Assembly (NCBI GenBank): GCA_000421065.1
Contig: ATWD01000001.1
Coordinates: forward strand, 1,542,001 to 1,606,000
Source of the DNA: Acidobacteriaceae bacterium TAA 166
GTDB taxonomy: Bacteria; Acidobacteriota; Terriglobia; Terriglobales; Acidobacteriaceae
DNA length: 64,000 nt
Reading direction: 5' to 3'
The notes under the pieces were generated by a model. The model saw only the letters and a program-made list of their open reading frames with translations, did no database searches and was not told the origin of the DNA. The translations under genes were made by a program, and so were the position numbers. Positions within the stretch are counted from its first letter, which is position 1, and each line of letters starts with the position of its first letter. This document shows positions 6,392 through 46,956 of the stretch, piece by piece.

Positions 6392-6396
6392 CCCGC

Positions 6397-7147: not shown

Positions 7148-7837
7148 ATGCCCCCACAATCAAAACGCGCCGCCCTCAACGCAAGATGGAACGACGAAGC
7201 AAAACGGCTGGCATCACAGGCCCGGGTTCTCTCAGGAGAAAAGCTCATCGAGTTGATCTCTCGCTTGCAACGGATCACTGGAAACTCAAAGGATGCGTGC
7301 TGGCGCTTTATTCGCCAACACGCTCTTCGCAGCAAGCACGACTACCGGAGGTGGACTCCCGAGGAGTTCGAGCAACTGCGGGAAGATCTGGCGTCTCATC
7401 CGCTGCAGACTGTAGCAAAGAAGCTTGGAAGAACCGAAGAGTCGATTCGGAGTATCCTTGCGCGCAACGGTCTCTCGGTGCGCTCGATTCGCTGCGACAT
7501 GTTCTCCGTCGAAAGCGTGGCGAGCGCGCTGAAAGTAGGGCGGCGTGAGGTGTTGCATTGGATCGAACGGGGCTGGCTGGAGACGAGCGTCGAACAGCGC
7601 GGCATCAGATCATTCCATACCATTTCGCCAGAGGCTTTGGCTCGGCTCTACCGCAATCATCTTCATCAATTGATCGAGCGGGGATTGCCCAATCGAGGAC
7701 TGTTCGAGGCATACCTGCAGTACTGCTATGTGCCTAAACATACGACCGGCAGCCAACTGCTTGAAGTCAGACGAGACAAGCGCGAGAGGGAAGCATTCTG
7801 CACACCCACTGCAGCTACTGAGAATGCTGAGGTGTAA
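7148..7837 (+). CDS. SANT/Myb-like helix-turn-helix DNA-binding protein
   Basis: 229 aa. The middle (about residues 68-110) has a SANT-like motif: RRWTPEEFEQLREDL, then LQTVAKKLGRTEESIRSIL, a second helix-turn-helix-like unit typical of DNA recognition. The following part (SVESVASALKVGRREVLHWIERGW) resembles a MerR/excisionase-type helix-turn-helix, so the protein has two potential DNA-binding modules. The N-terminus is basic and helical. It is divergent from the ECF sigma operon. Function is unknown; similar proteins seem common in Acidobacteria, but I cannot name a role. Confidence 0.6.
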   Translation: MPPQSKRAALNARWNDEAKRLASQARVLSGEKLIELISRLQRITGNSKDACWRFIRQHALRSKHDYRRWTPEEFEQLREDLASHPLQTVAKKLGRTEESIRSILARNGLSVRSIRCDMFSVESVASALKVGRREVLHWIERGWLETSVEQRGIRSFHTISPEALARLYRNHLHQLIERGLPNRGLFEAYLQYCYVPKHTTGSQLLEVRRDKREREAFCTPTAATENAEV

Positions 7838-8203: not shown

Positions 8204-8232
8204 TTGACAAATTTAAGCTGCCACCAAAGAAT
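8204..8232 (+). promoter_or_regulatory. Probable sigma70-type promoter of the NRPS cluster
   Basis: A perfect -35 box TTGACA (8204-8209) is followed after 17 bp by AAGAAT (8227-8232, 4 of 6 matches to TATAAT). This puts the transcript start near 8239 and gives a leader of roughly 200 nt ahead of the NusG-like gene at 8445. It is the best promoter match I see before the cluster. Confidence 0.4.
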
Positions 8233-8444
8233 CGTGCTCACACATAGGTCGGAAAGGTCCGTGCCGAGCCAAACTCCTCTGTCCTGGGAGGTCGGTGCCT
8301 AGACAAACTGCCCAAGACATAGAGGGCGATTCCCCGCCCATTTGAACCATCGTGCTGATGCACGGTTATGACGGCAGTCTGTGCAATTTTCAGCTATCCC
8401 AGTTCTATTCGCTTGAAATGCCTGTTCTGAGGGAGCTGATACAC

Positions 8445-8996
8445 ATGTCGATGGATGGCCACAAGTGGTACGCACTTCACGTGCGTCCAAACTACGAGCT
8501 TCACGTCGCGTCGCGACTAAAAGGCTTGGGGGTAAAGGAATACCTTCCGATTCAGCGCGAGCGGAGAAACACTCGGCGTAACAAGTTCAACGAAGGGTTC
8601 CCTCTTTTCCCTGGATATATCTTCACCTTCTTGAATCTAAGTGCTGGGCCAAGGCTCTACTCCATACCTGGAGTACTTCGCATTGTCGGTCAAGGCGGCC
8701 ACGCCACTCCGATCGAAGATGATGAAATAGCCGCCGTGCGAGCAGTTGCTGACTCCTCCTTACGGGTTGAAGCATCTTCCTATTTTCAACCTGGTGAAAA
8801 GGTTCACCTGATCGCGGGACCGTTGAAAGGTGTTTCCGGAACATTCCTTCGTACCTGTAGAGGCGACCAATTCGTCGTCTCCCTTCCTCTTCTGAAGCGC
8901 TCGTTGGCAGTGAGCGTCCTGCCAGGCTGGGTGGCGTCCGAGAGTACTCCGGAAGGTCGTGAGAACTCGAGCGTTGCGTCAGGAGTGAATCACTGA
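8445..8996 (+). CDS. NusG paralogue of the RfaH/LoaP/UpxY kind, processive antiterminator of the NRPS operon
   Basis: 183 aa. The N-terminal NGN domain begins at once with KWYALHVRPNYELHVASRLKG and continues through LPIQRERRN and FPLFPGYIF to VLRIVGQGG. The C-terminal KOW-type domain contains FQPGEKVHLIAGPLKGVSGTFL. The start at 8445 is set by GAGGGAG (8429-8435), 9 nt upstream; frames further upstream add unrelated sequence. Specialised NusG paralogues suppress pausing and termination in very long operons. LoaP does this for Bacillus polyketide operons, RfaH and UpxY for surface polysaccharides, and TaA belongs to the myxovirescin cluster. As first gene before about 40 kb of NRPS sequence, this protein very probably does the same. 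It is not the housekeeping nusG, which normally sits next to ribosomal protein genes. Confidence 0.85.
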   Translation: MSMDGHKWYALHVRPNYELHVASRLKGLGVKEYLPIQRERRNTRRNKFNEGFPLFPGYIFTFLNLSAGPRLYSIPGVLRIVGQGGHATPIEDDEIAAVRAVADSSLRVEASSYFQPGEKVHLIAGPLKGVSGTFLRTCRGDQFVVSLPLLKRSLAVSVLPGWVASESTPEGRENSSVASGVNH

Positions 8997-9142
8997 TCAC
9001 CGCCGCAAGCCCGATAGGCATTCGTCGCATCAGATTAGAGTTCAATGTGCGCTGGGCACGCAAGCGGGAAGGCGAGGGCATCATCCGCCCCAGGATGGGA
9101 GACTTCGGAGCGGCGCGTTCCCAGAACTTTGTGATCACTATT

Positions 9143-9282: not shown

Positions 9283-11763
9283 ATGTCGTTGTTCGATATG
9301 AAATTCGTCGCAAGGAGACTCCTAAGAGCTCCGGGGTTTGCAGTCACTGCGATTTTAGTTCTGGCTTTAGGGGTGGGGGCAACCACAGCAATTTTCTCGG
9401 TGGTGGACGGGATTCTTCTCCAGCCCCTTCCATTTCCCAAATCAGATCAAATTGTCGTCCTTACAGATCGCCTTACTGGAGTGGGGACCGGAAGCGACGA
9501 GGCGGGTGTGACAGCCGCAGACATCCCGGTGTACGCATCTCAGGTTAATTCATTCGAAAGCCTTGGAGCATACCGACAAACTCCATCCGAACTCTCCGAG
9601 GCAGGAACGCCCTCGCAAATCTACATCGCGCGGCTAAATGCAGGTGTCTTTGCCACCCTAGGAGTTAGTCCGGTGATCGGCCGGACGTTTACGAAGTCGG
9701 AGGAAGAGCAGAAACAACAGGTCGCTGTCCTAAGCTACCGAACATGGCAGAATCGGTTTCACGGTGATACCCGGATCTTGGGCAGCAAAGTTTCTCTAGA
9801 TCGAAAGCCATATTTGGTCATCGGCGTGATGCCAAGCCAATTCGACTTTCCTTTGCTGGCGGGTCGTCTGAAACGAACCGAATTATGGGTTCCCCTGAGC
9901 CTAACTCCAGACCAGATCGCGCAAGGTGCTTCATCCTGGGACTACCAAATGGTAGGTCGCCTAAAACCAGGTGTTACCGTCGCTCAGGCGCAAGCAGACG
10001 CGGAGCGGGCTGCGCAGCAAATCATGCGTGGATATCCGCCATTTATGGCCAGTCTCCACATCAATGCGGTAGTTCGGACTCTCTATGAAGAAACAATAAA
10101 TCGTGCTCGGCCTTTGGTGAGAACTCTCTTCCTTGCAGTAGCGGTCGTCTTGCTTATTGCTTGCGCGAACCTCGCAGGTCTCCTGCTCGTTCGGGCAATT
10201 CGCAATCGGAGCGAGGCCGCTGTCCGACAAGCACTGGGGGCATCTCCTGCAGTGTTGATCCGGCAACAGTTGATGGAAAGCATGGTTCTCAGCCTAATCG
10301 GCGGAGGAGTTGGTATCCTGATTGCGCTCTGGGCAGTTCGGGTCGGAGCTAATTTCTTACCTGATAGTCTTCCCAGGTTGGAGAACGTAAGCTTAAATTG
10401 GACAGTCACGCTGTTCGCCATCGCACTCTCTGTAATCACAGGCGTATTGTGTGGCATCGCTCCAGCTTTTGCCATTTCGAAGACAAACTTGAACGAGACT
10501 TTGAAGGAGGGAGGAAGGTCTGGTTCTGCAGGGGCCGCTCACGCACGCCTGAGATCGGCGTTGGTTGTCGCAGAGATCGCGATTGCGATGATGCTGCTAA
10601 CCGCGTCCGGACTACTACTCCGGAGTTTTCAGAAGATGAGCTCTGTCGACTTGGGATTTCGACCCGAGTTCGTGACAGCCGCGTCCTACTCCCTTCCCAA
10701 ATTGCAATATAGTAGTCAGCTCTCGATTGATTCATTTTCAGAAGAGTTACTTCGCCGAACCCGGCAGATCCCAGGCGTCGAGACTGCCGGACTCGCCAGT
10801 CTTTTGCCAAGTTCTGACGACGCGGCAAGCAATGCATTCGTCCCCGAGGGTTACAACGCCCCAAAGGGGGCGGGAATGAACCTCTCTACGAGTTCAATCG
10901 TCGATGGGGACTATTTCAACTCTATGCAGATCCCCTTGATTAAGGGGCGCTATTTCACGAGTAGCGATGGGAGGGATTCGCAGTTGGTCGCCATCGTCAA
11001 TCGCCGATTGGCGGAGCACTATTGGCCAAACCAGGACCCGATTGGGAAACGGATCCGACTAGGCACGGAGCAAACGCCAACGCCGTGGATGACCGTCGTC
11101 GGCGAAATCGGCGATGTGAAGCTAGGCTCACCCGATTCCGAGACGAAGGAGCAGATCTACCAACTTCGCGAACAGTTCAGTAGATCTCTTGGTTCATTGA
11201 CATCACCCGGTGATCGGTTCGGGGACTCCGCTTTCATTGTGATTCGAAGCTCTCTCCCCCCAGAGCAGATTGAAAACTCCCTACGCAAAGCAGTCCACGC
11301 TATTGATCCCCTCCTCCCTCTGACGCAAGTTCAGTCCATGGTCGAGGCTATGTCACATACTGAGGCGCCGCGTCGCTTCAACACCACCTTGATATCCAGC
11401 TTTGCTCTTGCGGCTCTAGTCTTGGCGGTGCTCGGTATGTATAGCGTGCTCGCATTTTCGGTCGCAGCACGCGATCAGGAGATTGCGATTCGCATGGCAC
11501 TTGGCTCCAAGCGCCATGAAATCGTGCGTATGGTGCTTGTCTCAGGTCTGAAACTCGCACTTGTGGGTTGCTGTCTTGGGCTTGCTGGCTCTGTTGTTTC
11601 GTCTAGACTCCTTAGCTCTCTGCTTTTCAACGTAACCCCATTTGATCCCATGGTTCTGGCCACGTCCGTATTATTGGTCGTTGGGCTCGCTCTTGGGGCC
11701 GCTCTGCTACCAGCAATACGTGCATCCACCATCAATCCTGTTAGGGCCTTGCGAGCGCAGTAA
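9283..11763 (+). CDS. Orphan MacB/FtsX-type ABC permease (acidobacterial duplicated permease family)
   Basis: 826 aa. The protein has an N-terminal transmembrane helix (FAVTAILVLALGVGATTAIF), a MacB-type periplasmic domain, and a three-helix FtsX unit around 270-400 (LFLAVAVVLLIACANLAGLLLVR, AAVRQALGAS). A second periplasmic domain (FVPEGYNAP, YFNSMQIPLIKGRYF) is followed by a second FtsX unit near the C-terminus (EIAIRMALGSKRHEIVRMVL; ASTINPVRALRAQ). AGGAGA at 9269-9274 fixes the start. This duplicated architecture without its own ATPase is typical of the orphan permeases that are very numerous in Acidobacteria. In this cluster it probably contributes to export or envelope response; the partner ATPase is not obvious. 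Confidence 0.85.
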   Translation: MSLFDMKFVARRLLRAPGFAVTAILVLALGVGATTAIFSVVDGILLQPLPFPKSDQIVVLTDRLTGVGTGSDEAGVTAADIPVYASQVNSFESLGAYRQTPSELSEAGTPSQIYIARLNAGVFATLGVSPVIGRTFTKSEEEQKQQVAVLSYRTWQNRFHGDTRILGSKVSLDRKPYLVIGVMPSQFDFPLLAGRLKRTELWVPLSLTPDQIAQGASSWDYQMVGRLKPGVTVAQAQADAERAAQQIMRGYPPFMASLHINAVVRTLYEETINRARPLVRTLFLAVAVVLLIACANLAGLLLVRAIRNRSEAAVRQALGASPAVLIRQQLMESMVLSLIGGGVGILIALWAVRVGANFLPDSLPRLENVSLNWTVTLFAIALSVITGVLCGIAPAFAISKTNLNETLKEGGRSGSAGAAHARLRSALVVAEIAIAMMLLTASGLLLRSFQKMSSVDLGFRPEFVTAASYSLPKLQYSSQLSIDSFSEELLRRTRQIPGVETAGLASLLPSSDDAASNAFVPEGYNAPKGAGMNLSTSSIVDGDYFNSMQIPLIKGRYFTSSDGRDSQLVAIVNRRLAEHYWPNQDPIGKRIRLGTEQTPTPWMTVVGEIGDVKLGSPDSETKEQIYQLREQFSRSLGSLTSPGDRFGDSAFIVIRSSLPPEQIENSLRKAVHAIDPLLPLTQVQSMVEAMSHTEAPRRFNTTLISSFALAALVLAVLGMYSVLAFSVAARDQEIAIRMALGSKRHEIVRMVLVSGLKLALVGCCLGLAGSVVSSRLLSSLLFNVTPFDPMVLATSVLLVVGLALGAALLPAIRASTINPVRALRAQ

Positions 11764-12146: not shown

Positions 12147-12257
12147 ATGCCCAGCGATACTGCTGCCCCTGAACAGGCTCTGATCCTTCTCCGTCGAGCG
12201 GGTCAAGACGCGAGAGTTTTAGTGGATAGCTACTTAACTAAGGAGTATTTCTCGTGA
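12147..12257 (+). CDS. Possible small protein (36 aa) overlapping the ABC ATPase start
   Basis: An ATG frame encodes a 36-residue peptide beginning MPSDTAAPEQALILLRRAG. It ends in TGA that overlaps the GTG start of the ATPase gene as GTGA, the usual sign of translational coupling. The middle could form an amphipathic helix. I see no good ribosome site ahead of the ATG and know no homologue. It may be a leader peptide setting translation of the exporter, or chance. Confidence 0.25.
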   Translation: MPSDTAAPEQALILLRRAGQDARVLVDSYLTKEYFS

Positions 12258-13213
12258 TCGAGGTCAAAGACCTTCGCCGGTCGTATGGAGCATATGAGGC
12301 CGTGCGCGGCGTAAGCTTCAGTATTCCGCCGGGCAGCATCTGGGGGCTACTTGGTCCCAACGGGGCGGGCAAAACAACGATCATTGAGATGATTTTGGGA
12401 CTCCGCAGACCGACTTCCGGACTCATTCGGGTTTCTGGCCTGGACCCCACTCGAGACACGGCACAATTGCGCCGAATCATGGGTGCTCAACTCCAATCCA
12501 TCTCGATCCCGGACAAGATCCGCGTTTTGGAAGCTATCGAACTCTTCGCGTCTTTCTATGATGTTGCCCTGCCCTCAGAGGAACTTCTGGACCTCGTTGG
12601 TCTCCAGCACCGGCGATCCATAAGCTTCGAGCACCTTTCCGGTGGAGAAAAACAGCGAGTGGCGCTCGCACTTGCACTTGTAGGTAATCCCAAAGTCCTG
12701 TTGCTTGACGAGCCGACTACCGGACTCGACGCTGATAGCAGGAGAGCGCTACACGACCTCATTCTTCGGCTCAGAGATCAAGGGCGGACCGTCGTCCTAA
12801 CGACTCACTATCTTGAAGAAGCGGAACGCCTTTGCGATCAGGTCGGTATCATCGACCACGGCGAGTTGCTCACGATAGGCTCCCCTCACGACTTGATCAA
12901 CACATTAGGCCGAGGTGAATTACTCGAGATCGTACTACGCAGGCGCGTGCCCAATGAAGAACTCGAACTCTGGGTTGGCCCCGGTGTTTCGGTTACCTCG
13001 GATACACACAAGTACATCTTGAGAGGTGACAGCGCGGGTCGGCTGTTAGCAATCATTGCAGTCCAAGCGGACAAGCATTTCAACGAAATCGTCGAAGCCC
13101 GGGTCCGTCACGTGAATCTCGAGGATGTCTATCTTCAGCTGATCGGAGAAACAGGAGATGAAAGCCGTCGCGCGTTTAGTAATCCTCAATCTACGCCTCT
13201 CTTATCGCGTTAA
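12254..13213 (+). CDS. ABC-2 type exporter, ATP-binding protein
   Basis: 319 aa with a complete nucleotide-binding domain: Walker A GPNGAGKTT (about residues 35-43), signature LSGGEKQRVA, Walker B VLLLDEPTTGLD and the H-loop VLTTHYLEEAERLCDQ. The C-terminal ~80 residues form the extra domain common in drug-exporting ATPases of the CcmA/DrrA type. The start is GTG 12254, within a TAAGGAGTATTTCTC context that gives an AAGGAG ribosome site. It overlaps the permease gene by 56 bp, so the two are translated together. Likely role: powering export of the NRPS product or self-resistance. Confidence 0.9.
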   Translation: MIEVKDLRRSYGAYEAVRGVSFSIPPGSIWGLLGPNGAGKTTIIEMILGLRRPTSGLIRVSGLDPTRDTAQLRRIMGAQLQSISIPDKIRVLEAIELFASFYDVALPSEELLDLVGLQHRRSISFEHLSGGEKQRVALALALVGNPKVLLLDEPTTGLDADSRRALHDLILRLRDQGRTVVLTTHYLEEAERLCDQVGIIDHGELLTIGSPHDLINTLGRGELLEIVLRRRVPNEELELWVGPGVSVTSDTHKYILRGDSAGRLLAIIAVQADKHFNEIVEARVRHVNLEDVYLQLIGETGDESRRAFSNPQSTPLLSR

Positions 13214-14042
13214 GATTGCCTTCTTCTTTCACTTCATATTTCCACTTCTTATGACGTTTGCTTACTTCGGAATCTTCGCACACGGGAATCCGTTGGAGGT
13301 CGCGGGCATGATGGGCCCCCTAATCAGCCTCACCGTAATGACAGACGCGCTGCTGATGGCGGGCATGAGATCTGCGGAAATGCGCGAACGGGATATGTTT
13401 CGGCAATTTCATCTCACGCCAATCAGAGCGTCCCAGCTTGTACTCAGCGATATCATTCTCGGCTATCTGACGTTCGCTCCCGTCGTTGTCCTGGAATTCG
13501 CGATCGCAGTATCCATCTACCGCATGCCATTAGCCGGTTCCTACCTCGCAATAGTGGTGATCTCGACACTAGGCTTTCTGGCATTGGCTTCCCTCGGCAT
13601 CTTGTTATCAAGCGTGGTTAACACTGGCCAGGAGGCATCAGTCATCACCCAGCTTCTATTTCTGTTGCTCATTCTGCTATCGGGAACGACGATGCCGCTC
13701 GCTAAGCTGCCTCACATAGTGCAGTATCTTGCTGTGTTCACTCCACCCGCTCTAATGATTGTTCCGACTGATGGCATCATTCTCCATGGAGATCACCTCA
13801 GTCAGCACCTTCCCGAAATCCTTACGCTTCTTGTCTCGTTCCTAACTGCCTTCGCGGTGGCGATTCTAGTTTTCCGGTGGGAGAAGGACGAGAAGGTCAC
13901 TCCTGCGGCCCGCTTAAAAGCTCTCGCCGCTCTTCTTCCGCTTGTCATTCTGGGGATTGCCTTCAGCGTGATTCCGAAGGCACATCGATGGTTTCCTTTC
14001 CCTTCGCAACAAACCCCGCGATCTGCCCCCGCAAATCAGTAG
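13158..14042 (+). CDS. ABC-2 type exporter, permease subunit
   Basis: 294 aa with about six membrane segments (IAFFFHFIFPLLMTFAYFGIF, LGYLTFAPVVVLEFAIAVSIY, YLAIVVISTLGFLALASLGI, VITQLLFLLLILLSG, ILTLLVSFLTAFAVAILVF, ALAALLPLVILGIAFSVI). It carries the ABC-2 membrane pattern including REMRERDMFRQFHLTPI-like and LSGTTMPLAKLP motifs. The ribosome site CGGAGAA lies inside the ATPase gene. It pairs with the preceding ATPase and ends 27 bp before the first NRPS gene, placing the exporter firmly in the biosynthetic operon. Confidence 0.88.
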   Translation: MKAVARLVILNLRLSYRVKIAFFFHFIFPLLMTFAYFGIFAHGNPLEVAGMMGPLISLTVMTDALLMAGMRSAEMRERDMFRQFHLTPIRASQLVLSDIILGYLTFAPVVVLEFAIAVSIYRMPLAGSYLAIVVISTLGFLALASLGILLSSVVNTGQEASVITQLLFLLLILLSGTTMPLAKLPHIVQYLAVFTPPALMIVPTDGIILHGDHLSQHLPEILTLLVSFLTAFAVAILVFRWEKDEKVTPAARLKALAALLPLVILGIAFSVIPKAHRWFPFPSQQTPRSAPANQ

Positions 14043-14069: not shown

Positions 14070-17000
14070 ATGAAGACAGTCCAAGCAGCGGCATCGAAGT
14101 TTTTCCGCGACACCAGAAATGAGCAAGCCATTCATGCCTTTGGCTCCGCCGCATGCGCAGTCGCAGCTCTTGACATAGCCGGTCCCCTAAGCCTCACGGC
14201 GCTGCAACGTAGTGTCTCCGGTTTATTGGCGGATTGCGATGGCCGTTGCACAGACGTTTCCAGCAACATGGCGGAAGGCCAAAACATGAACGCTCCGTAT
14301 GGGGTTCAGCACATTGACCTCAGTTCGGATGTCGATCCGGAGAAGACGCTGGAACGTCTCTTGGAAGAGTGGCCTCTGACAGGGTCGCAGCCCATTAGTG
14401 GACTCCCCCATATCTCGGTGCTCAAACTGGACATCAACAGGCATATTCTCGTTTTGACGTCGACCGCGCACACTTCATCGCACGGAGCACCTAAGTGGCT
14501 GATACGCGAAGTAGGAACGCGTTATAGGGAACTCACTGGTCAGATTCCCGCTGATACTTTCGATTGCCAGAGCGACTCGTACGAGAATTCCGGATCGAGA
14601 ATGACGTCTCATGCTGAGCGCTCAACGGCTGTCTGGTCCTGGAACGATCAGTTCAATGGGCTTGAATATTTGACTCTGCCGGTCACAAGTCTGAAAGAGG
14701 CCTTTGTCACAACCGCTATCGGTAGGCATGTGCAGAGTCTAACGTCTGAGATGTCGGACCAAGTAAGCCGGCTAGCGAGTGAGGAGCACGTTGAGGCTGC
14801 AACGGTCTATCTCTGTGCTTTAGTCATGCTCCTTGCACGCTATAGCAGAGAGAACGATATTGCGGTTAGAACACGCCTCGATGGGATTCAAGAGGTGACA
14901 AGGGGAACGGCGATCACGCCTATTGCTGACGAGACCCTTATCATCCGGGTCGACCTTAGTGCCTATTCACACGTACGTCCCCTGATGAAAGAGATACAGG
15001 CGCAAATCGATGCGGCCGGTGCATACGTGAAGAGATGGCCACACGATTTGGACAGTCTCCGTGGGGCACCTCAACTCTCCTCTTCGTCCAAACTAGCTCC
15101 AGTACTCTTCTGCTATTCGGCCCCGCACACCGAAGTTTGGGGTGCCGAAGGGTTACATACAACGTTTCGCGTTGTCGAATCCAGTTCATCTCAAGCGCGT
15201 TCTAGTGAAGTGGAGTGGATACTATCCCTTCATTCAGACCCCAACGGCGTTGCATGCTCCTTGGAGTACGACCAGAACATCTACGTTGCAGAGAGCATTG
15301 ATGATTTTACCTCCCATTTGATGATGACTTTGACGCGGATTGTCCAGGACCCCAATCAGTTATGGAAAACCGCAAGCGAGCTTCCCATTGACCTGCGGCA
15401 ACGGATCCTTGAGAAGTGGAACGCCACTGAACGCAACTACCCAATCGACGATCTGGTTCATAACTTATTCGAGAAGCAAGTAAAAAGGACACCTGCGGCC
15501 TGCGCACTGATTTGCGGGCGAGATCAACTCACGTACGAGGAACTGAACCAACGCTCTAACCGGTTGGCACATTACCTCCGGGAAATAGGGGTGGTTTGTG
15601 AATCCAGGGTTGCGATTTGTGTCGAACGAAGTCTGGAGATGGTGGTTTCACTACTGGCAATTCTGAAGGCTGGGGCGGCCTACATACCACTCGATCCAAC
15701 CTATCCGGCAGACAGATTGGAGTTCATGCTTCAGGACAGTTCTCCAGTGGCGCTATTAACGCAATCTCATCTCGCCTCAAAATTCCAGAATGATAGCGTG
15801 ACAATGATCGCGCTCGATTCCGAGGAGTACATCGACCGGAGCAATGGCAATTCCTGCGAGAACCTATTCGTTAACGATTTAACGTGCCGAAGCCTAATGT
15901 ACGTGATGTATACGTCCGGCTCAACTGGATCGCCCAAAGGAGTCATGACCGAGCATCGTGCTGTGGTCAACAGAATGTTATGGATGTTGGAGCGCCATCC
16001 CCTCGATAGCACTGACACCATCCTTCAAAAGACACCTTACGGCTTTGATGTGTCCGTCTGGGAGTTTTTTTGGCCGCTGCTCTGTGGGGCGCGATTGTTG
16101 CTTGCCAAGCCGGAAGGGCACAAAGATCCAGATTACCTGGCGGACATGATAGGCGAATATGGGGTCAGTGCCGCTCATTTTGTTCCGTCCATGCTTCGCG
16201 TCTTCTTGGACAGCGCAAGCGGACAAGACTGTCCGGCACTCAAGACTGTGTTTTCTGGTGGTGAAGCCCTTACCCCGCTACTGGTCCAGCGCTTCCAGAG
16301 CCGATTTCCGGAAACGCAACTTTACAACTTATATGGTCCTACCGAGGCGGCGGTCGATGTCACAGCCTGGCCCTGCCCTCCTTACGACGATGACCGATGC
16401 ATCCCTATCGGATTTCCAGTTCCTAACACCCGCATATACATCCTTGACGACGAATTGTCGCCATTGCCCCCTGGGGTCGCTGGTGAACTCCATATCGGCG
16501 GAGTACAAGTGGCTCGCGGTTATTGGAATCGCGACAGCCTCACGGCCGAGAGGTTTATCGTTGACCCGTTTTGGGGTGGCGGCAAGAACAGGATGTATCG
16601 AACCGGAGACCTCGCACGATGGTTGCAAAATGGAGCCATCGAGTTCCTCGGGCGCAATGACTTTCAGGTCAAGATTCATGGTCAGCGGATTGAGTTGGGA
16701 GAGATCGAGAAAACGCTATCACGCCATGAAGCCGTCAAGGACGTAGTTGTCCTCGCACAGGAGAATGCTGCCGGCGTTCAACGACTAATGGCCTACTGGA
16801 CTCCGGCATCAGACTATGGACAAAGTGGCAAGGCCTACCATGTGGACGATCTGCGAGAGTATCTCCAGCGCAGCCTCCCTGATTACATGATCCCGGCAGA
16901 GTATGTTCGACTGAATAATTGGCCTGTAACCACCAACGGAAAGCTCGATCGACATGCGTTGAGCGGAATGCGATCACCAGATCCTTACTCGCCAGGGGAC

Positions 17001-20000
17001 GCTCCTCAAGGAGAGCTCGAAAGCGCACTCGCAAGGTTATGGGAGGAGGTCCTGCAGGTATCGGGGGTGGGCCGAAATTCAGATTTTGTTTCTCTCGGCG
17101 GTCATTCACTCTCGGCGATGATCATTATTTCGCGACTGAGAGTTCAGCTTGGAATGGATGCAACCGTACGCGACTTTTTTGCGTGGCCCACTGTTGCTTC
17201 GCTCTCCGAGCGGCTCACTCGATATCCAGGTAGAAAACGCCCCGGAATCGATCAAACTCGATCCTCAGGAGGGATTCTCTCCTTCGCGCAGGAAAGTCTG
17301 TGGTCTCTGTCCAGGACTCAGGACGCGAGCCGGGCTTACCATATTTCATTCGGATTAAGTCTCCAGGGCCACCTAGATAAGTCCGCACTCCGCACCGCGC
17401 TAAATGAATTGCTCCTTCGGCACGATGTCCTTCGTGCAACGTTTGTCGATCGAGATGGCGAACCTCTTGTGGAATATCTTCCCGATGAACTGTGTGAATT
17501 CCAACTCTCCGAGTGCGACCTCAGCAGTAGCGTCGTCGAGCTACCTCGAATCCTGGCTCACGAATCGGCCACCGGGTTTGATTTAAATACGGGACCACTC
17601 ATTCGTGGCCTGCTTGCTAAACGAGCCGAGGATGATCACGTCCTCATAGTCACTATGCACCACATCGTTTCTGATGGGTGGTCCGTTGGAGTCCTGGTCG
17701 ACGAGTTCCGAGTGCTATACGAACGCGGCATGCGAGGCAACCAGATCACACTGCCCCGCATGCTCCACCAGTTTCGAGACTATGCACGCTGGCAGCGTGA
17801 GCAGTTCGAGGATGGAGCTTATGAGGAGTCGCTAAGGTACTGGGCCGATCATTTGAAAGCGCTCCCCGAACAGCATGATCTTCCGACTGATCGAACCCGG
17901 CCCAGTGTCCCTAGTTATGTCGGGGATGTTGTTCGCCGACAACTTCCGGTTTCATTGTCTGCCAGCTTAGACATATTGAGTCGCGGTGAAGGAGTGAGTC
18001 TGTTCATGACTCTCCTTACTGCATTTCAGATCCTCCTAGCGCGTTGGAGTGGCCAAGACGACGTCGTGGTTGGCACTCCTGTAGCTGACAGGAGCTTCCC
18101 GGGAGCGGACAGCCTCGTCGGATTGTTCGTCAATATGGTGGCACTTCGTACGAAGATTCCGCACCACGAGTCATTCCGCTCTCTGTTAAAACATGTTTCG
18201 GAAATCTGCCTCTCGGCGTACAGGCACCAAGATGTACCGTTTGAACTTGTCCTGCAACGGCTCAACCCAACCAGAGACATGAGCCGGCACCCTCTGTTCC
18301 AAATCGCTTTGAACATGTTGAACTATCCACGGTCTCCAGTCGCCATGAGTGACCTTGACGTCAATTATCTAGAGATGCCCAAGGATCTGACGTCAAAGTT
18401 TGACTTGACTCTGTACGTCAGACAGGGTGAGTCGTTGAGGTTGGATCTGGCCTACAGTACAGACCTCTTTGACAACGGGCGTATGGTTGAGTTTCTAGAC
18501 CAGTTTCAAGAGCTCTTGACTCAGGTTGCGCAGTCACCTGATGCTCCAATCTCAGGCTTCTCTCTCGTGACTGCGAACGCGATGTCGAGACTTCCCGATC
18601 CGAAACAAGCCATCGCTTCAGGAAAGTACCCCTCAATCCTCACCCGGTTTGCGGAGCAAGTAGCGCTCAAGCGTGAAGCGCCAGCAATATTCTTCTCTGG
18701 GCGAACAATCACATACGCAGCATTGGATAGCTCCAGCTCTAATCTCGCTAACGAGCTCATGGAACGAGGACTCACTGGAAAGCTGATTGCGATATACGCC
18801 GCCAGAACGCCCGACTTGGTGGAATGCATGCTGGCCGTGTGGAAAGCAAAAGCGCATTTCGTCCTGCTTGACCGAACTCATCCTGAACCGTTACTGCGTG
18901 ACTACATAGCGCTCCTTGATCCGGCAGCAATTCTCGGCGGGGCCCTGGATCACACAACGCCTGACAAAACGTTAGAGGTGAGGGCGTCCAGCGATGATTT
19001 GGGTATGTCGTTTGACTCTGCAAGCCCCGTGGCGCCAAGTATTCTCAAAATTGAAAAAGCGCAGATGGCTTATATTGCGCTCACCTCCGGATCTACGGGC
19101 ATCCCTAAGATCATCGTAGGAACCCATGGCCCACTCGAGCACTTCGCGGACTGGTATCAGACGACCTACAACATATCGGCATCAGATAGGTTCTCCATGT
19201 TGTCGGGGTTGGGACATGACCCTCTGCTGCGAGACATCTTTGTCCCCCTGACAATCGGTGCATCAATTTCAATTCCAAACGACCTTCCATTAGGGGAGGA
19301 TCTAGCTCGATGGCTATCAGCCACTGACACAACAGTTGCGCATATGACTCCATCCTTAGCCCGAACGCTGCAAGGTAGTCAGGAACGACTAGCGACGTTG
19401 CGCCTAGTAGCCTGTGGGGGAGAGACTTTAACTTACGGTGATGTGCAACTTCTTCGAACCATCGCACCGAAAGCAGAATTGGTCAATTTCTACGGCACGA
19501 CAGAAACACCTCAAGCAGCATGTTTTTACGATTGCGGTCCAGACCGGTCTCCAGATAGAAAAGTGCCAATTGGTAGTGGCATCTCTGAGGTTCAGGCGCT
19601 GGTCGTAGGAGATGGCAATCGACTATGCGGCATCGGTGAGTGCGGCGAAATCTTGATCAGAACTACGCACCTCACGGATGGCTATAGAAATGACATCCAG
19701 GAGACGGCGCGTCGATACATCTCGAACCCGTTTCGAGCAGATCTGCCGGATCGGATTTACCGAACCGGCGACCTAGGCCGATACAACCTCGACGGGGCGG
19801 TTGAATACGTTGGCAGATCGGATTCTCAGGTAAAGATCAGAGGATTTCGCGTCGAGTTGAGAGCTGTGGAAGCAACCTTAGAGCAGATCTCCTCTGTCAC
19901 GCGGGCGGCCGTTGTGGTGAGGGAAGACAACCAAGGTCTTCAGCAACTAGTCGGTTATGTCATTCCAAATGTATTAGCAGAGTTCAACGCTGATGCTATT

Positions 20001-23000
20001 CGGCATGGTCTGGCATCAAGACTACCGGCATATATGGTCCCAGTCTTCATTATCCCAGTGGATGAGCTTCCGCTAACTCCAAATGGTAAGCTCGACTACC
20101 AGGCTCTCCCGGTCCCTAGCTTCAACACAGCGCATCGACGCGATCCACGTACGTTACACGAAGAACTACTGGCAAACATCTTTGCTGAAGTCCTTCATCT
20201 GGGTAGTGTCGACGTTCACCGTAGTTTCTTCGACCTTGGTGGACACTCATTGAGTGCCACACGCGCCGTGAGTCGAATACGTCGCTTGCTCGGTATAGAG
20301 TTATCGATCCGCACACTATTCGAAAACTCATCAGTCGTAGCCCTAGCTAGGCGTTTGGATTCCTCATTAACGAGAAGAGAGCCGGTCGTCCCCTGTCCAA
20401 AGAGGAACGCGGAGGCTGTGTCCTATGGACAGCGGCGACTCTTGTTCCTCCAGAAACTAGATACTGCAAATACAGCCTACAATCTCACCCTAGCGTTCAA
20501 GATTCGTGGAAGCCTGAATACTGAAGCTTTGGGCCAATCCATTCTCGACCTCGTGACCCGTCACGAGCCTCTCCGTACAGTGTTTCTTGAATCAGAGGAT
20601 GGTTACGTTCAAGCCGTTTTGCCTGTTCATGATGTTCGACTGCAGCTCGCCCACACAGATGTCTCAGTAGAGCTATTGAGCGATGCCCTTTCGGCCGAAG
20701 CGAATCGGCCTTTCGAACTAACTCGTCAGATACCCATTCGCACACGTCTGTTTGACATTGGCCCACATGAATATGCCCTCGAACTGGTAATCCATCACGT
20801 TGCATGCGACGGTTGGTCGATGGCCCCTCTCATCAGAGATTTGGAGGTTGCATATTCGCACCGATGCCGCAACGAAGTTCCAACGTGGTCTCCATTGCCT
20901 GTCCAATATCTGGATTTTGCACTCTGGCAGCAGAAGCTGCTGGGCAAAGAGGGAAATCCTGACAGTCCTGTCGCTCAGCAGCTCTCGTATTGGGAGGCGA
21001 CATTAACCGGCCTCAGTGAGGAGATCGACCTTCCTTACGACAAACCGCGTCCGCCTGCGCCAACCTATAGTGGCAGAGTGGTGGAGTTTGATGTTCCCAA
21101 ACGACTGCATTCGGAACTAGCTGCCATAGCCCGAAAATATGATGTCACACTTTTCATGGTGTTGCACGCGGCTTGCGCTCTAATGGTGAGCCGGGTTGCC
21201 AACTGTGACGATATCGTTTTCGGAACTCCGACAGCGGGCCGCACGGACGATAGTCTCGAGGATTTGGTGGGGTTCTTTGTGAACACGCTCGTCCTGCGAG
21301 TTAGCACTTCGGGTAATCCTACGATCGTCGAGTTGCTCGCACGTACTCGTGAGGTGGATATCGCGGCGTATGCAAATCAAGATGTGCCGTTCGATCGCTT
21401 GGTTGAAAAGATAAACCCTTCGCGTGTTCTGGGGCGCCATCCGCTCTTCCAGATCATGTTTGTGATGCAGAACACGGAGCGCGCAGCTCTTACTCTCCCT
21501 GGACTTACCGTCGAGTCCATCCCCGTTGAGACGGGCACCGCCCAGTTCGATCTGTCAATAAGCATGCGGGAGCAAAAGGACGAAGCAGGTGACCTTTTGG
21601 GAATTCATGGTAGATTGACTTACGCGACCGACCTATTCGAATCCAGCACTATAGAACGTCTGGCGCGGCGTTTCCTTCTCATACTAGATGAGATAGTGAA
21701 AGACCCATCGCAACGGATCCAACAGGTTGACATCCTATCTTCAGACGAGCGCGATCTCCTGCTTCATCAGTGGAATGGGATAACGACACGCCCTTCGACG
21801 CTCACACTCCCGGAATTGTTCGAGCAGCAAGCGCTCACAATGCCGCGATCAACAGCTGTGGTGACAGAGAGCGAAGTAGCCACCTACGCAGATCTGAATA
21901 TTCGCGCAAATCAACTGGCTTATCTCCTGATCGCTGGTGGTGTGGGACCTGAGTCTTTGGTTGCTGTATCTCTGCACCGGTCCGTGGAGTTGGTAGTCGC
22001 CCTCCTAGCAGTCTTGAAAGCTGGTGCGGCATATGTGCCCCTCGATCCTTCATACCCAACCGAGCGGTTAGAGTTCATGCTCGACGACTGCTCCCCCAGA
22101 GCACTAATAACGCACTCCGACGTCTCCAATATATGTTCAACGCGTACCAACAATTTGTGGGCTATTGATCTATCCGATCCTTCGCTGGATCTATGCAACC
22201 AGCCCACATCTGATCCGAAGCACACCAACCTTTCACCACGCTCTCTCGCCTATGTCATGTATACGTCCGGTTCCACTGGGAAACCTAAGGGCGTGATGAT
22301 TGAGCAAGGCAGTATATGCAATCGGCTGACCTGGGGACAGGCGGCATATCCACTGACTGATTCCGACTGCGTAATGCAGAAGACACCATTCAGCTTTGAC
22401 ATTTCGGTATGGGAACTCTTCTGGCCTCTATTGTACGGCGCAAAGCTCATGATGGCCGAACCCAATCGTCACCGCGACCCGGCCTACCTTGTACGAACGA
22501 TACGAAAACATAACATCACTGTCATCCACTTTGTCCCTTCAATGTTGACAGCTTTCCTCGACGCGGTCGATTGTCAAGGGCTCCCGACACTACGACGAGT
22601 CATTTGCAGCGGAGAGGCTCTTTCTCCTTCTCTCGCGAAGCGATTCAATGCTCTGCTCCCAGAGACAGCGTTGGAAAATCTTTACGGACCGACAGAGGCG
22701 GCGGTCGAGGTAACCGCATGGTCCTATACGCCTACCTATTCGGGTACAACTCTGCCCATCGGACGTCCCATCGCGAACACAATGATCTATATCCTTGATG
22801 GGGAGATGCGTCCAGTACCGGTTGGGACTGTTGGCGAACTCCATATCGGTGGCATTCAGGTTGCAAGAGGATATTGGCAGAGGCCACAACTAACAATTCA
22901 AAAGTTCGTTCCGAATCCTTTTTCCGCTAAACCAGACGATCGGCTCTACCGAACGGGGGACCAGGCCCGTTGGTTAGCGGATGGCAATATCGACTTCAAG

Positions 23001-23633
23001 GGGCGCAGCGACACGCAGGTTAAGCTACGAGGTTTCCGAATCGAACTAGAAGAGATCGAGGCGACACTGACAAGGCATCAAGGTGTACGAGAGGCGGTCG
23101 TCTCTCCACTTTTTCGCGACGGCGAGATTATCGGCTTGGTGGCTTACTTTACTTGCTTGGCCAATTCTGAAGCGCAGTGCACTCCAGAAAGTTTAAGGAA
23201 TCATCTTCGCCGCGATCTTCCCGATTTTATGATTCCTGCCGCATACGTTCGACTCGAGTCATTGCCTCTCTCAGTAACCGGCAAACTTGATCGAAAAGCT
23301 CTTCCGAAACCGGATGGTACAGCTTATGTCGCCAAACCGTACGATCCGCCCAAGGGACTAGTCGAGGAAGCACTGGCACAGATTTGGGCCGGGGTGCTAG
23401 GCAGCCAATCGATTGGAAGAAATGACAACTTCTTTGAGCTAGGTGGGCATTCACTGATCGCCACAAGAGTCTTGTTTCAAGTCCAACGACATTTCGAGAT
23501 CCGGGTCGAACTGCGAGATACATTTGAGTGTCCCACCTTGTCAGGCTTCGCGGCTCTAATTCGAGATCGACAGTTGGCCCAGTTTGATGCCGGTGAGTTG
23601 GCGCAACTGGCACGAACCATCCCGAATTCTTAG
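14070..23633 (+). CDS. Nonribosomal peptide synthetase 1, modules 1-3 (C*-A-T-C-A-T-C-A-T)
   Basis: 3187 aa. Order: degenerate condensation domain (about 20-440), A1 (455-960), T1 (Ser about 1013 in LGGHSL), C2 (HHIVSDG about 1197), A2 (1515-1990), T2 (about 2057), C3 (HHVACDG about 2241), A3 (2560-3055), T3 (about 3125). The first C domain has AHTSSHG where HHxxxDG is expected. Pocket residues read from the A4-A5 region (plus the A10 Lys) are DVWHFGLVDK for A1 (serine type), DPRHAGFQAK for A2 (no confident call) and DIWHISLVEK for A3 (serine-like). C2 and C3 look like L-to-L condensers; no epimerase is present. It is the first line of the assembly, probably starting without a lipid tail because the C* motif is broken. 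The C-terminal tail should dock to NRPS 2. Confidence 0.95.
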   Translation: MKTVQAAASKFFRDTRNEQAIHAFGSAACAVAALDIAGPLSLTALQRSVSGLLADCDGRCTDVSSNMAEGQNMNAPYGVQHIDLSSDVDPEKTLERLLEEWPLTGSQPISGLPHISVLKLDINRHILVLTSTAHTSSHGAPKWLIREVGTRYRELTGQIPADTFDCQSDSYENSGSRMTSHAERSTAVWSWNDQFNGLEYLTLPVTSLKEAFVTTAIGRHVQSLTSEMSDQVSRLASEEHVEAATVYLCALVMLLARYSRENDIAVRTRLDGIQEVTRGTAITPIADETLIIRVDLSAYSHVRPLMKEIQAQIDAAGAYVKRWPHDLDSLRGAPQLSSSSKLAPVLFCYSAPHTEVWGAEGLHTTFRVVESSSSQARSSEVEWILSLHSDPNGVACSLEYDQNIYVAESIDDFTSHLMMTLTRIVQDPNQLWKTASELPIDLRQRILEKWNATERNYPIDDLVHNLFEKQVKRTPAACALICGRDQLTYEELNQRSNRLAHYLREIGVVCESRVAICVERSLEMVVSLLAILKAGAAYIPLDPTYPADRLEFMLQDSSPVALLTQSHLASKFQNDSVTMIALDSEEYIDRSNGNSCENLFVNDLTCRSLMYVMYTSGSTGSPKGVMTEHRAVVNRMLWMLERHPLDSTDTILQKTPYGFDVSVWEFFWPLLCGARLLLAKPEGHKDPDYLADMIGEYGVSAAHFVPSMLRVFLDSASGQDCPALKTVFSGGEALTPLLVQRFQSRFPETQLYNLYGPTEAAVDVTAWPCPPYDDDRCIPIGFPVPNTRIYILDDELSPLPPGVAGELHIGGVQVARGYWNRDSLTAERFIVDPFWGGGKNRMYRTGDLARWLQNGAIEFLGRNDFQVKIHGQRIELGEIEKTLSRHEAVKDVVVLAQENAAGVQRLMAYWTPASDYGQSGKAYHVDDLREYLQRSLPDYMIPAEYVRLNNWPVTTNGKLDRHALSGMRSPDPYSPGDAPQGELESALARLWEEVLQVSGVGRNSDFVSLGGHSLSAMIIISRLRVQLGMDATVRDFFAWPTVASLSERLTRYPGRKRPGIDQTRSSGGILSFAQESLWSLSRTQDASRAYHISFGLSLQGHLDKSALRTALNELLLRHDVLRATFVDRDGEPLVEYLPDELCEFQLSECDLSSSVVELPRILAHESATGFDLNTGPLIRGLLAKRAEDDHVLIVTMHHIVSDGWSVGVLVDEFRVLYERGMRGNQITLPRMLHQFRDYARWQREQFEDGAYEESLRYWADHLKALPEQHDLPTDRTRPSVPSYVGDVVRRQLPVSLSASLDILSRGEGVSLFMTLLTAFQILLARWSGQDDVVVGTPVADRSFPGADSLVGLFVNMVALRTKIPHHESFRSLLKHVSEICLSAYRHQDVPFELVLQRLNPTRDMSRHPLFQIALNMLNYPRSPVAMSDLDVNYLEMPKDLTSKFDLTLYVRQGESLRLDLAYSTDLFDNGRMVEFLDQFQELLTQVAQSPDAPISGFSLVTANAMSRLPDPKQAIASGKYPSILTRFAEQVALKREAPAIFFSGRTITYAALDSSSSNLANELMERGLTGKLIAIYAARTPDLVECMLAVWKAKAHFVLLDRTHPEPLLRDYIALLDPAAILGGALDHTTPDKTLEVRASSDDLGMSFDSASPVAPSILKIEKAQMAYIALTSGSTGIPKIIVGTHGPLEHFADWYQTTYNISASDRFSMLSGLGHDPLLRDIFVPLTIGASISIPNDLPLGEDLARWLSATDTTVAHMTPSLARTLQGSQERLATLRLVACGGETLTYGDVQLLRTIAPKAELVNFYGTTETPQAACFYDCGPDRSPDRKVPIGSGISEVQALVVGDGNRLCGIGECGEILIRTTHLTDGYRNDIQETARRYISNPFRADLPDRIYRTGDLGRYNLDGAVEYVGRSDSQVKIRGFRVELRAVEATLEQISSVTRAAVVVREDNQGLQQLVGYVIPNVLAEFNADAIRHGLASRLPAYMVPVFIIPVDELPLTPNGKLDYQALPVPSFNTAHRRDPRTLHEELLANIFAEVLHLGSVDVHRSFFDLGGHSLSATRAVSRIRRLLGIELSIRTLFENSSVVALARRLDSSLTRREPVVPCPKRNAEAVSYGQRRLLFLQKLDTANTAYNLTLAFKIRGSLNTEALGQSILDLVTRHEPLRTVFLESEDGYVQAVLPVHDVRLQLAHTDVSVELLSDALSAEANRPFELTRQIPIRTRLFDIGPHEYALELVIHHVACDGWSMAPLIRDLEVAYSHRCRNEVPTWSPLPVQYLDFALWQQKLLGKEGNPDSPVAQQLSYWEATLTGLSEEIDLPYDKPRPPAPTYSGRVVEFDVPKRLHSELAAIARKYDVTLFMVLHAACALMVSRVANCDDIVFGTPTAGRTDDSLEDLVGFFVNTLVLRVSTSGNPTIVELLARTREVDIAAYANQDVPFDRLVEKINPSRVLGRHPLFQIMFVMQNTERAALTLPGLTVESIPVETGTAQFDLSISMREQKDEAGDLLGIHGRLTYATDLFESSTIERLARRFLLILDEIVKDPSQRIQQVDILSSDERDLLLHQWNGITTRPSTLTLPELFEQQALTMPRSTAVVTESEVATYADLNIRANQLAYLLIAGGVGPESLVAVSLHRSVELVVALLAVLKAGAAYVPLDPSYPTERLEFMLDDCSPRALITHSDVSNICSTRTNNLWAIDLSDPSLDLCNQPTSDPKHTNLSPRSLAYVMYTSGSTGKPKGVMIEQGSICNRLTWGQAAYPLTDSDCVMQKTPFSFDISVWELFWPLLYGAKLMMAEPNRHRDPAYLVRTIRKHNITVIHFVPSMLTAFLDAVDCQGLPTLRRVICSGEALSPSLAKRFNALLPETALENLYGPTEAAVEVTAWSYTPTYSGTTLPIGRPIANTMIYILDGEMRPVPVGTVGELHIGGIQVARGYWQRPQLTIQKFVPNPFSAKPDDRLYRTGDQARWLADGNIDFKGRSDTQVKLRGFRIELEEIEATLTRHQGVREAVVSPLFRDGEIIGLVAYFTCLANSEAQCTPESLRNHLRRDLPDFMIPAAYVRLESLPLSVTGKLDRKALPKPDGTAYVAKPYDPPKGLVEEALAQIWAGVLGSQSIGRNDNFFELGGHSLIATRVLFQVQRHFEIRVELRDTFECPTLSGFAALIRDRQLAQFDAGELAQLARTIPNS

Positions 23634-45265: not shown

Positions 45266-45456
45266 CTATCGCCCTTAGCGAATGCTGAAGTTGTAGTCGT
45301 TGCGAGGCTCGGTACACGCCGAAACCGATCTATCCGTATGACTGTCAGCAGCCTCATGCCTAAGGGGCTGGGTAATAGTCGATTGGAAGCTCAGCTCCGT
45401 TCAAAGCCAGTACCATGTCGCACGATCCTCACCAAATAGATGGAGGAATTTGCCTT

Positions 45457-46956
45457 ATGACCGCACCCGCGATCGACGCCGCAGTGACTTCGACAGCCCG
45501 CCTTTCTGAGCGCCTCGAAAGGCTAGCACAAGCCTCAAGAGTATTTCTGAGTATGCCTCTAATCGAGGGTATAACGCCCCGATATCTTGTCGCCAACGGG
45601 CACAGGGAAGACTGCGACCCACAATCGGGCCTAACTCGGTGCTCCGGAACTTTTCTGCTCTCAGAGGTGGGCCTTCCAGTCTTCGACCACGGTCTGCTTT
45701 ATGGCGACGCTGTATTCGAGGGTGTCACAATCAATGAAGGGAGAATCTTCCAGTGGAGAGAGCATATTGCTCGACTATTCTCCTCTGCTGCTGCAGTCCG
45801 AATTGCGATTCCTTACACCCCGGAAAGATTAACGAGCCATATTCTCGAAGCTGCAAGGACGGTTCATTTCAACACCAACAGCGCAACATACTTACGACTG
45901 ATTGTTACTCGGGGTATAGGCGACCTCGCAATTGCTCCCACAACCTGCGTGGGGAGCAGCATCTGCTGTATTGCGTCACAGGTACAGCTGTACCCTCAAC
46001 ATGTCTATGACCACGGACTTCGCCTCAGAATAGCCAGACACATACGCCGACAGGGCCGCCAAACGCTTGATCCGCGGATCAAATCTTGTAACTATCTGAA
46101 CAACATATTTGGGTTGCTTGAGACAAGTGACGAAGACACTCACGAAGCACTAATGCTCACGCAAGAAGGGTGGATTGCTGAGGCTACAGCAGACAATGTG
46201 TTCTCCGTGCGGAGAGATGATGGGTGGCGCCACGACCCATCGAAGGTAGTGATCATCACCCCCTCAAGGGAATATTGCTTGAATGGGATAACTCGTGACC
46301 TGGTGATTCGATACGCAAGAGAGCGCGGTTATCGTATCCAAGAGAACTCACAAATGCTGCCGTCCGATCTGTTCGGCGAGCATAAGGAATTGTTCCTCAC
46401 AGGCACGGCCGCCGGGATTGCCCCAGTGACAGAGATTGACGGTAGTCCGATTGCCAATGGAGAACCGGGACCGATTACCAGACAGCTCCGTGACATGCTC
46501 AAAGTGGATATGGTTCGCGATGAGATGGGATTGCCTCTGAGGGCCACCAGTGCCGACGTTGAACATTATTTTTCGGTTCGGAGTTCCCAGTGGGCGCAGC
46601 ATCACCAAACTGCGCACGATCTGATCGCCACAATGTTCGAGGTCATCGACCTGCAAAGCTGGACAGATCTAGAAACATTTTTCCATGAGGATGTAGTGTA
46701 CGAGCGGCCCGGCTACGAACCAATACGAGGCATTCAGAATCTCATGCATTTCTATAAAGAGAGAAGAGTAATCGCCAGCGGAACGCACGAACTTGAAGGG
46801 ATCACTGCAGATCGCGAGTACGCTGCGTGTTGGGGCCGGTTTATTGGAACGCATAAGGACGGATCCTCCCTCGACGAGCGTTTTTCGGACGTATACACAG
46901 TAAAAAATGGACAGATTGCGACACGCCGGTCATTCTTTTTTAGGCCCGCGGTTTAG
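45457..46956 (+). CDS. Class IV aminotransferase fused to a SnoaL/NTF2-like domain
   Basis: About 499 aa. Residues 20-360 are a fold-type IV PLP aminotransferase of the branched-chain/D-amino-acid family: VFDHGLLYGDAVFEG, YLRLIVTRG, the PLP lysine in DPRIKSCNYLNN (about residue 209), EATADNVFSV and LTGTAAGIAPVTEIDG. Residues about 385-499 are a SnoaL-like cone fold (TMFEVIDLQSWTDLETFFHEDVVYE, MHFYKERRV, SDVYTVKNGQIATRR). GGAGG at 45442-45446 favours ATG 45457 over the upstream ATG at 45415. Located directly after the NRPS genes, it probably makes or tailors an amino-acid building block; the SnoaL part may bind or isomerise a keto intermediate. The reaction is unknown. Confidence 0.85.
   Translation: MTAPAIDAAVTSTARLSERLERLAQASRVFLSMPLIEGITPRYLVANGHREDCDPQSGLTRCSGTFLLSEVGLPVFDHGLLYGDAVFEGVTINEGRIFQWREHIARLFSSAAAVRIAIPYTPERLTSHILEAARTVHFNTNSATYLRLIVTRGIGDLAIAPTTCVGSSICCIASQVQLYPQHVYDHGLRLRIARHIRRQGRQTLDPRIKSCNYLNNIFGLLETSDEDTHEALMLTQEGWIAEATADNVFSVRRDDGWRHDPSKVVIITPSREYCLNGITRDLVIRYARERGYRIQENSQMLPSDLFGEHKELFLTGTAAGIAPVTEIDGSPIANGEPGPITRQLRDMLKVDMVRDEMGLPLRATSADVEHYFSVRSSQWAQHHQTAHDLIATMFEVIDLQSWTDLETFFHEDVVYERPGYEPIRGIQNLMHFYKERRVIASGTHELEGITADREYAACWGRFIGTHKDGSSLDERFSDVYTVKNGQIATRRSFFFRPAV

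Follow-up and report, generated by a model that had tools for sequence, protein, structure and literature searches.

A specialised NusG paralogue at the head of an acidobacterial NRPS gene run, and a leader element that may recruit it

UpxY, from the capsule operons of Bacteroides, is encoded by the first gene of the long operon on which it presumably acts. E. coli RfaH is encoded elsewhere. The accessible part of PMC5995543 gives the E. coli ops12 element as GGCGGTAGCGTG, and reports that RfaH contacts the ops loop at G4-A7, that the C3:G8 pair matters and that TG at positions 11-12 induces the pause. LoaP of Bacillus velezensis is a NusG paralogue of long antibiotic operons, and binds to a UNCG hairpin in the leader RNA of its PKS operons (PMC12691694, available text). 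NusG-like genes are also present in the PKS cluster for antibiotic TA of Myxococcus xanthus (TaA; PMC7819879) and in the NRPS/PKS cluster for paenilamicin of Paenibacillus larvae (pamM; PMC4234257); we compared both by description, as given in the accessible parts of these papers. The available text of PMC7593976 describes as unknown how NusG paralogues are recruited when they are encoded within their own operons; a leader element that recurs at many loci makes this question directly testable.

We analysed 64,000 nt of DNA from Acidobacteriaceae bacterium TAA 166 (the window; contig ATWD01000001.1, positions 1,542,001 to 1,606,000), in which a first-pass annotation had recognised a compact, RfaH/LoaP-like NusG paralogue. 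The gene runs from an ATG at 8445 to a stop at 8996 and encodes 183 residues. Its reading frame is already open from a GTG at 8352; the ATG, preceded by GAGGGAGC, is the likelier start. The product is a specialised NusG paralogue: it has an NGN domain (PF02357, the Pfam NusG/NGN family; 58.6 bits over residues 6-98, cut-off 22.2), is distinct from the housekeeping NusG of its own genome (the only other PF02357 match there, at C1:4224024), has lost the Rho-contact triplet and has F at the position of RfaH F56. Pfam scored no separate KOW domain in it. The UpxY and RfaH models both extend over residues 8-158, which indicates that the C-terminal part of this compact protein is present. Among curated family models the highest score was that of UpxY (NF033644, 87.4 bits, below its cut-off of 100), ahead of RfaH (TIGR01955, 61.0 bits, cut-off 144.5; a second RfaH model, 35.3 bits, also below its own cut-off), LoaP (NF033641, 56.0 bits, cut-off 125) and nusG (35.4 bits, cut-off 135.7). 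Its orthologues in two sister genomes, G102 and G191, scored 79.9 and 81.0 bits on the UpxY profile, and a relative from its group in genome G008 scored 119.6 bits, above the cut-off. Thus, the assignment as a specialised paralogue is borne out, but its nearest kin by profile is UpxY, with RfaH and LoaP lower and all three below their cut-offs. It also differs from UpxY in its cargo, which is NRPS and not capsule.

Comparison with RfaH (E. coli RfaH numbering) showed a mixture of conserved and changed positions. The paralogue shares F56 with RfaH (NusG has L), and has L-L-K at the site of the I-F-G triplet by which NusG contacts Rho (roles of these residues from the accessible part of PMC7593976). 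Of the RfaH side chains that read ops, as listed in the available text of PMC5995543, four are changed (K10 to R, H20 to R, R23 to G and R73 to P); R is also found at the first two positions in two Bacteroides UpxY proteins. E48 is replaced by F and R138 by Q, and the autoinhibition positions E48, I93 and F130 are F, I and F. Most of the RfaH residues that read ops or maintain autoinhibition are therefore changed, and here too the paralogue departs from the RfaH likeness first proposed. The residue pattern would favour an open factor working in cis over an autoinhibited one working in trans. Monomorphic RfaH homologues, described in a 2026 preprint (PMC13015549, accessible text), are likewise encoded inside long operons or beside them, and the lack of E48 and R138 in the window paralogue is a further likeness, but they are a subfamily of RfaH from virulence-associated operons.

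In a quick tree of 124 rows, with no LoaP or TaA sequences among them, 10 NusG rows (8 from the order, E. coli and Shewanella) split from the other 114, including the paralogue, with an SH-aLRT of 96-98. This tree places the paralogue outside the housekeeping NusG clade, as had been supposed. Three Paenibacillus loci (L063-L065) were considered as LoaP candidates and excluded from the tree, as their ORFs, read whole, were not NusG proteins. Deeper branching was weak, and the fork that paired E. coli RfaH with the window's group had a support of 37. The 16 rows around the window have a basal SH-aLRT of 53 and are therefore treated as a working group, not a proven clade; within it, the paralogues of the window, G102 and G191 were joined with a support of 100. 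Relatives of the paralogue are widespread in the order (121 of 200 genomes at E 1e-8 or better) and in the genus (26 of 62 genomes at E 1e-6). Close orthologues, with 62-65% identity, were found in just 2 of the 61 other genus genomes (G102 and G191), the next match being 31-35% identical.

The paralogue heads a codirectional run that comprises genes for an ADOP permease, an ABC exporter, three NRPSs, an aminotransferase and SbnA-like and SbnB-like enzymes, and extends to 49217 (Table 1). We take the ADOP permease family (TIGR03434) to fit an acidobacterial host. An ADOP/MacB-type permease is found near the paralogue at four loci of the working group (the window, L145, L195 and L074), in L074 on the opposite strand. 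The three NRPSs together have nine Condensation and nine AMP-binding stretches, and the SbnA-like and SbnB-like genes at 46984-49217 suggest 2,3-diaminopropionate in the peptide product. The run includes intergenic gaps after 8996 (286 nt), 11763 (490 nt) and 23633 (225 nt). It is followed by a gap of 1037 nt containing an opposing 221-aa ORF (49259-49924, minus strand) with no Pfam match, and past this gap by a protein of unknown family that precedes the phosphopantetheinyl transferase. Given this gap and the opposing ORF, 50255-52067 may be part of another transcript, so the claim that the paralogue is the first gene of about 40 kb of codirectional biosynthetic genes stands as far as 49217. 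Putative terminator-like matches in the scanned region numbered 10 (mean of shuffles, 6.0), one of them within the paralogue gene (8860-8881). The further suggestion, that an acidobacterial NRPS case extends a known principle of control, is right in that the paralogue heads an NRPS run; yet pamM (PMC4234257, available text) is an NRPS precedent, and with TaA and pamM already known in PKS or NRPS/PKS clusters the principle itself is not new.

Table 1. Features of the paralogue locus, in window coordinates.
Feature	Positions	Strand	Basis
Hinge gene, 229 aa, no Pfam match	7148..7837	+	Last gene common to this address in G102, G191 and G069
Putative promoter, TTGACA-17-AAGAAT	8204..8232	+	10/12 consensus; sole forward match in 7800-14200
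Conserved leader element TGACGGCAGTCTG, ops-like; potential GAC-GGCA-GTC hairpin, then TG	8369..8381	+	Leader comparison
Specialised NusG paralogue, 183 aa	8445..8996	+	ORF, Pfam, curated profiles, residue alignment, tree
ADOP-family (MacB/FtsX-type) permease	9283..11763	+	TIGR03434 852 bits, cut-off 622; Pfam
ABC transporter ATPase, DrrA-like	12254..13213	+	Pfam; drrA model 238.6 bits, under cut-off 312
ABC-2 type permease	13158..14042	+	Pfam
NRPS, 3187 aa, three modules	14070..23633	+	Domain search
NRPS, 3264 aa, three modules	23859..33653	+	Domain search
NRPS, 3871 aa, three modules and thioesterase	33650..45265	+	Domain search
Class IV aminotransferase fused to SnoaL-like domain	45415..46956	+	Pfam
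SbnA-family enzyme (2,3-diaminopropionate synthesis)	46984..48216	+	TIGR03945 414.7 bits, cut-off 350
Ornithine cyclodeaminase family, probably SbnB-like	48192..49217	+	Domain match; SbnB-like role from SbnA neighbour
4'-phosphopantetheinyl transferase, perhaps on other transcript	51339..52067	+	Domain match

The leader of the paralogue gene contains a putative promoter, found in a weak scan that returned 3 matches in all, compared to a mean of 3.7 in shuffles (both strands). G102 has a similar TTGACA-17-AACAAT at a like distance from a 13-nt element, TGACGGCAGTCTG, that is common to the otherwise diverged leaders of the three orthologues. The distance from the putative -10 hexamer to this element is 137 nt in the window, 133 nt in G102 and 321 nt in G191. 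Each of the three genomes has a single copy of the element, which lies upstream of the paralogue and on the same strand. The exact 13-mer also occurs at 10 or more places in other genomes (10 of the 13 places listed), none of the 10 being next to a listed paralogue. At 8370-8381 it has the geometry of ops (C3:G8 pair, loop from G4 to A7, TG at 11-12), with an identity at background level: it agrees with ops12 at G1, C3, G4, G5, A7, G8, T11 and G12, and 8/12 is the usual best score both of leaders and of reverse strands. We also compared the potential of the DNA just 5' of the element to form a stable RNA hairpin, which ranked 5th of 18 local segments and was dropped.

Variants of this tetraloop element were found in the leaders of related paralogues: GGCGGCAGCCTG in G069 and G354, GGCGATAGCCTG in G008, GGCGGTAGTGTA in G323, GGCGGTAGCACG in G334, and GGCGGCAGTCTG and GGCGAGAGCCTA on two contigs of G119 (C180 and C179, respectively). 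These variants keep C3, G4, A7 and G8 (ops numbering), and the second stem pair, A-T in the window, is G-C in G069. With ops12 as a fixed query, matches of at least 10/12 were found in 5 of the 16 working-group leaders compared to 2 of 92 others (Fisher p 0.0007), with 0 of 16 and 1 of 92 on the reverse strand. A fitted pattern, G.CG..AG..T(G/A), occurred in 10 of the 16 group leaders and 2 of the 92 others (reverse strand, 1 and 2), although it was partly defined on the same 16 rows, 6 of which do not fit it. The degenerate pattern TGRCGGCAGYCTGY was rejected as a specific marker, being present somewhere in 130 of 200 genomes; it is commoner than a reversed control pattern in most genomes that hold it. 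Nor does the element predict NRPS genes. In G169, TGGCGGCAGCCTGT lies just 5' of a paralogue on contig C43, where no Condensation domain was found, and the G354 leader (L255) has TGGCGGCAGCCTG with no Condensation domain found anywhere in that genome. Therefore, the element tracks the protein group and not NRPS cargo as such.

A second element, with a triloop, emerged from reading 85 paralogue loci, comprising all 32 genus matches and 53 others of the order, mostly the best-ranked relatives. In an unbiased count of leader words the highest-ranking 12-mer was GGGCGAAGCTAT; two words overlapping it had equal or near rank. In 60 of the 85 leaders GCGRAGC was present no further than 400 nt upstream, compared with 4 of 85 on the reverse strand and a mean of 7.4 (largest 17) in 200 leader shuffles; upstream of other ORFs in the same stretches it was found in 103 of 855 cases. 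When the proteins were clustered at 50% identity, 8 of 17 clusters had GCGRAGC in at least half of their members, and none did on the reverse strand. Start codons were chosen by script, and at several loci the ATG lies inside GCTATG of the element, so offsets at those loci are approximate. The bases flanking the triloop core pair (Watson-Crick or G-T) in 60 of 61 leaders, a count inflated by shared descent; 20,000 permutations averaged 48.8 and reached at most 57. G-T pairs dominate at this outer position (43/61). T is commonest two places 5' of the G/A that occupies the ops G12 position. The window leader has one GCGGAGC at about -300, as do 12% of control regions. Outside the order, GCGRAGC occurred in 2 of 23 leaders (excluding L271, which belongs to the window's family); the triloop element is thus a feature of the order and not of the phylum. 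Two Bacteroides UpxY leaders had no clear element of either kind. The sequence AATCGCAGATTGA, a potential C(GCA)G hairpin with a 4-bp stem, is present in the leaders of L074 (at -299) and G191a (at -133).

The cargo of these loci varied. A member of a sugar-transferase (Bac_transf) cluster was found within 18 kb downstream at 42 of the 85 loci, and a member of a glycosyltransferase cluster at 38, each cluster being identified by one representative; NRPS-like sequence was found downstream at 11. Within the working group, natural-product-type genes (NRPS, adenylation, ketosynthase or RiPP genes) lie near 9 of the 10 within-order loci: the window, G102, G191, G069, L145, L189, L186, L074 and L195; the tenth, L182, is ambiguous. 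At two of the nine the arrangement differs, with the next gene on the other strand in L074 and a short run in G191. Four further loci, not members of the group, also had NRPS-like matches (L205, L175, L207 and L171).

The orthologous paralogue looks to stand at one chromosomal address before differing clusters in the sister genomes. In the window, G102 and G191 it is preceded by the same module of genes, for an HTH protein, an unknown protein, a CHAT protein, an S41 peptidase, two opposing genes and the hinge protein. Left-flank DNA is colinear between the window genome (G000; 33-37 kb), which has additional stretches, and both G102 (12.6 kb) and G069 (16.6 kb); for G191 the address is indicated by the shared module together with one DNA match far to the left. 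The similarity to G102 and G069 stops near 7797, shortly before the end of the hinge gene, and with G102 it starts again within the paralogue gene. Behind the paralogue of G102 lies an NRPS-PKS system, accompanied by carbamoyltransferase, sugar and glycosyltransferase genes. In G191 the paralogue is followed by genes for an epimerase and a weakly matched glycosyltransferase, in a codirectional run of only about 3 kb, then small opposing ORFs, one of which contains a group II intron maturase fragment (L070:19400-19927). Beyond these ORFs are genes for an ECF sigma factor, a TonB-type receptor, YcaO, a split LanB and a ThcOx-like oxidase, and no Condensation domain was found anywhere in this genome. 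By its parts, the YcaO/LanB/ThcOx set with the ECF sigma factor (L070-L071) resembles a thiopeptide- or azole-type RiPP cluster. In G069 (hinge gene identity 91%) the address is occupied from its opposite side, and a different paralogue (34-35% identity) heads a run of about 46 kb that is codirectional save for two small opposing ORFs and contains a 5758-aa ORF overlapping NRPS matches.

What might the paralogue do? We lean towards the view that it is an operon-specific transcription processivity factor, recruited through a hairpin signal in its own leader. Transcription would start upstream of the paralogue gene, and RNA polymerase would pause at TGACGGCAGTCTG, about 137 nt beyond the putative -10 hexamer. 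The exposed non-template strand could then fold into a C(GGCA)G mini-hairpin, acting as DNA and not RNA, on which the paralogue, translated from its own transcript, would dock through its NGN domain. Once docked it would exclude NusG, stay on the polymerase and act in antitermination, allowing the ADOP, ABC and NRPS genes (about 40 kb) to be read through without losses to Rho or to pausing. As recruitment would rest on the leader alone, the cargo behind the leader could change. The sequence data that argue for this reading are the tree position, F56 with L-L-K in place of the Rho triplet, the first place in the run, the presence of TGACGGCAGTCTG in three leaders with promoter spacings of 137 and 133 nt in two, the ops12 enrichment, and the same neighbours with different cargo; G069, in which another paralogue with a variant element heads about 46 kb, is also consistent with it. 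Counting against it are the 8/12 match of the window element to ops, the changed DNA-reading residues of RfaH, the 6 of 16 leaders that do not fit, the promoter distance of 321 nt and run of about 3 kb in G191, the support of 53 at the base of the group and the copies of the exact 13-mer away from the listed paralogues.

In the main alternative, which we regard as unlikely, the function would be the same but recruitment would be by a nascent-RNA hairpin, as for LoaP, with the shared element forming part of an RNA structure. The tetraloop and triloop elements both read as hairpins on RNA too, and the many G-T outer pairs of the triloop form would be sound G-U pairs in RNA, but the stems are of 3 bp only and TG follows at the ops pause position. 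A UNCG hairpin with a stem of at least 4 bp was absent from the 450 nt before and the 300 nt after the paralogue gene, which sets the window apart from LoaP; such hairpins were found in 9 of the 85 leaders overall, with one weak example in G102. There was also no Rfam match in 7800-9400 at E 0.1.

We give less credence still to a paralogue whose action is confined to its own leader, where it would serve as autoregulator or attenuator, or which is a mere relic borne by the address, with the NRPS genes using promoters of their own and not needing it. Its persistence at the address while the cargo differs would fit this, as would the gaps of 286 and 490 nt ahead of the exporter genes and the short run in G191. 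Against this, the promoter scan, a weak test, gave no further forward match in 7800-14200, natural-product-type genes recur near nearly all within-order group loci, and the paralogues of G069 and G008 are followed by long, (nearly) uninterrupted runs. That the paralogue is a second, general NusG acting genome-wide was already disfavoured and is highly improbable: the NGN domain is kept, but a separate housekeeping NusG exists, the nusG score is far below its cut-off, the Rho-contact triplet is lost and close orthologues are confined to two other genomes of the genus.

A broader and more tentative proposal can also be made, which we think has somewhat less than an even chance of being correct. 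Throughout the order, NusG paralogues would dock on related mini-hairpins of the non-template DNA strand, whose C-GN(N)A-G loops keep one register relative to a pause step, the triloop GGCGRAGCTATG mostly at polysaccharide operons and the tetraloop GRCGRYAGYCTG mostly at natural-product operons. RfaH and ops would be one case of this wider code, in which the loop follows the protein clade. The antiterminator and its element would together be a constant docking head at a single chromosomal address, with whole biosynthetic clusters being swapped behind it. A leader-recruited antiterminator of the kind favoured here, if borne out, would be a natural counterpart of what was reported for RfaH with the lux operon, where the factor acts on whatever follows the leader element (PMC7593976, accessible text), and would provide a sequence tag with which to find, and perhaps switch on, long silent clusters. 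Our literature searches, with most subscription papers outside their scope, found no report joining Acidobacteria, NusG, antitermination and biosynthesis, or Acidobacteria, biosynthetic gene cluster, NRPS and NusG, and the accessible literature on LoaP, UpxY and ops-like elements yielded no ops-like element for UpxY-type leaders. Within the reach of these searches, both leader elements are new, and so is the exchange of cargo behind an antiterminator that stays in place.

The region ahead of the paralogue has features of its own. The hinge gene, within 706-7837, recurs three more times in its own genome, twice at about 52% identity and once at 32% (including G000:C3:183364 and G000:C1:226618). 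Parts of the CHAT/S41 module accompany some copies and perhaps form a repeated island. Behind nine other copies of the hinge gene there was no paralogue or NRPS within the 4-10 kb examined. A plasmid search returned one weak Nostoc match for the hinge gene and no match for contig 3. No tRNA genes were found in the whole window, and downstream of the cluster, at 58760-60043, it encodes a tyrosine recombinase of the phage integrase family.
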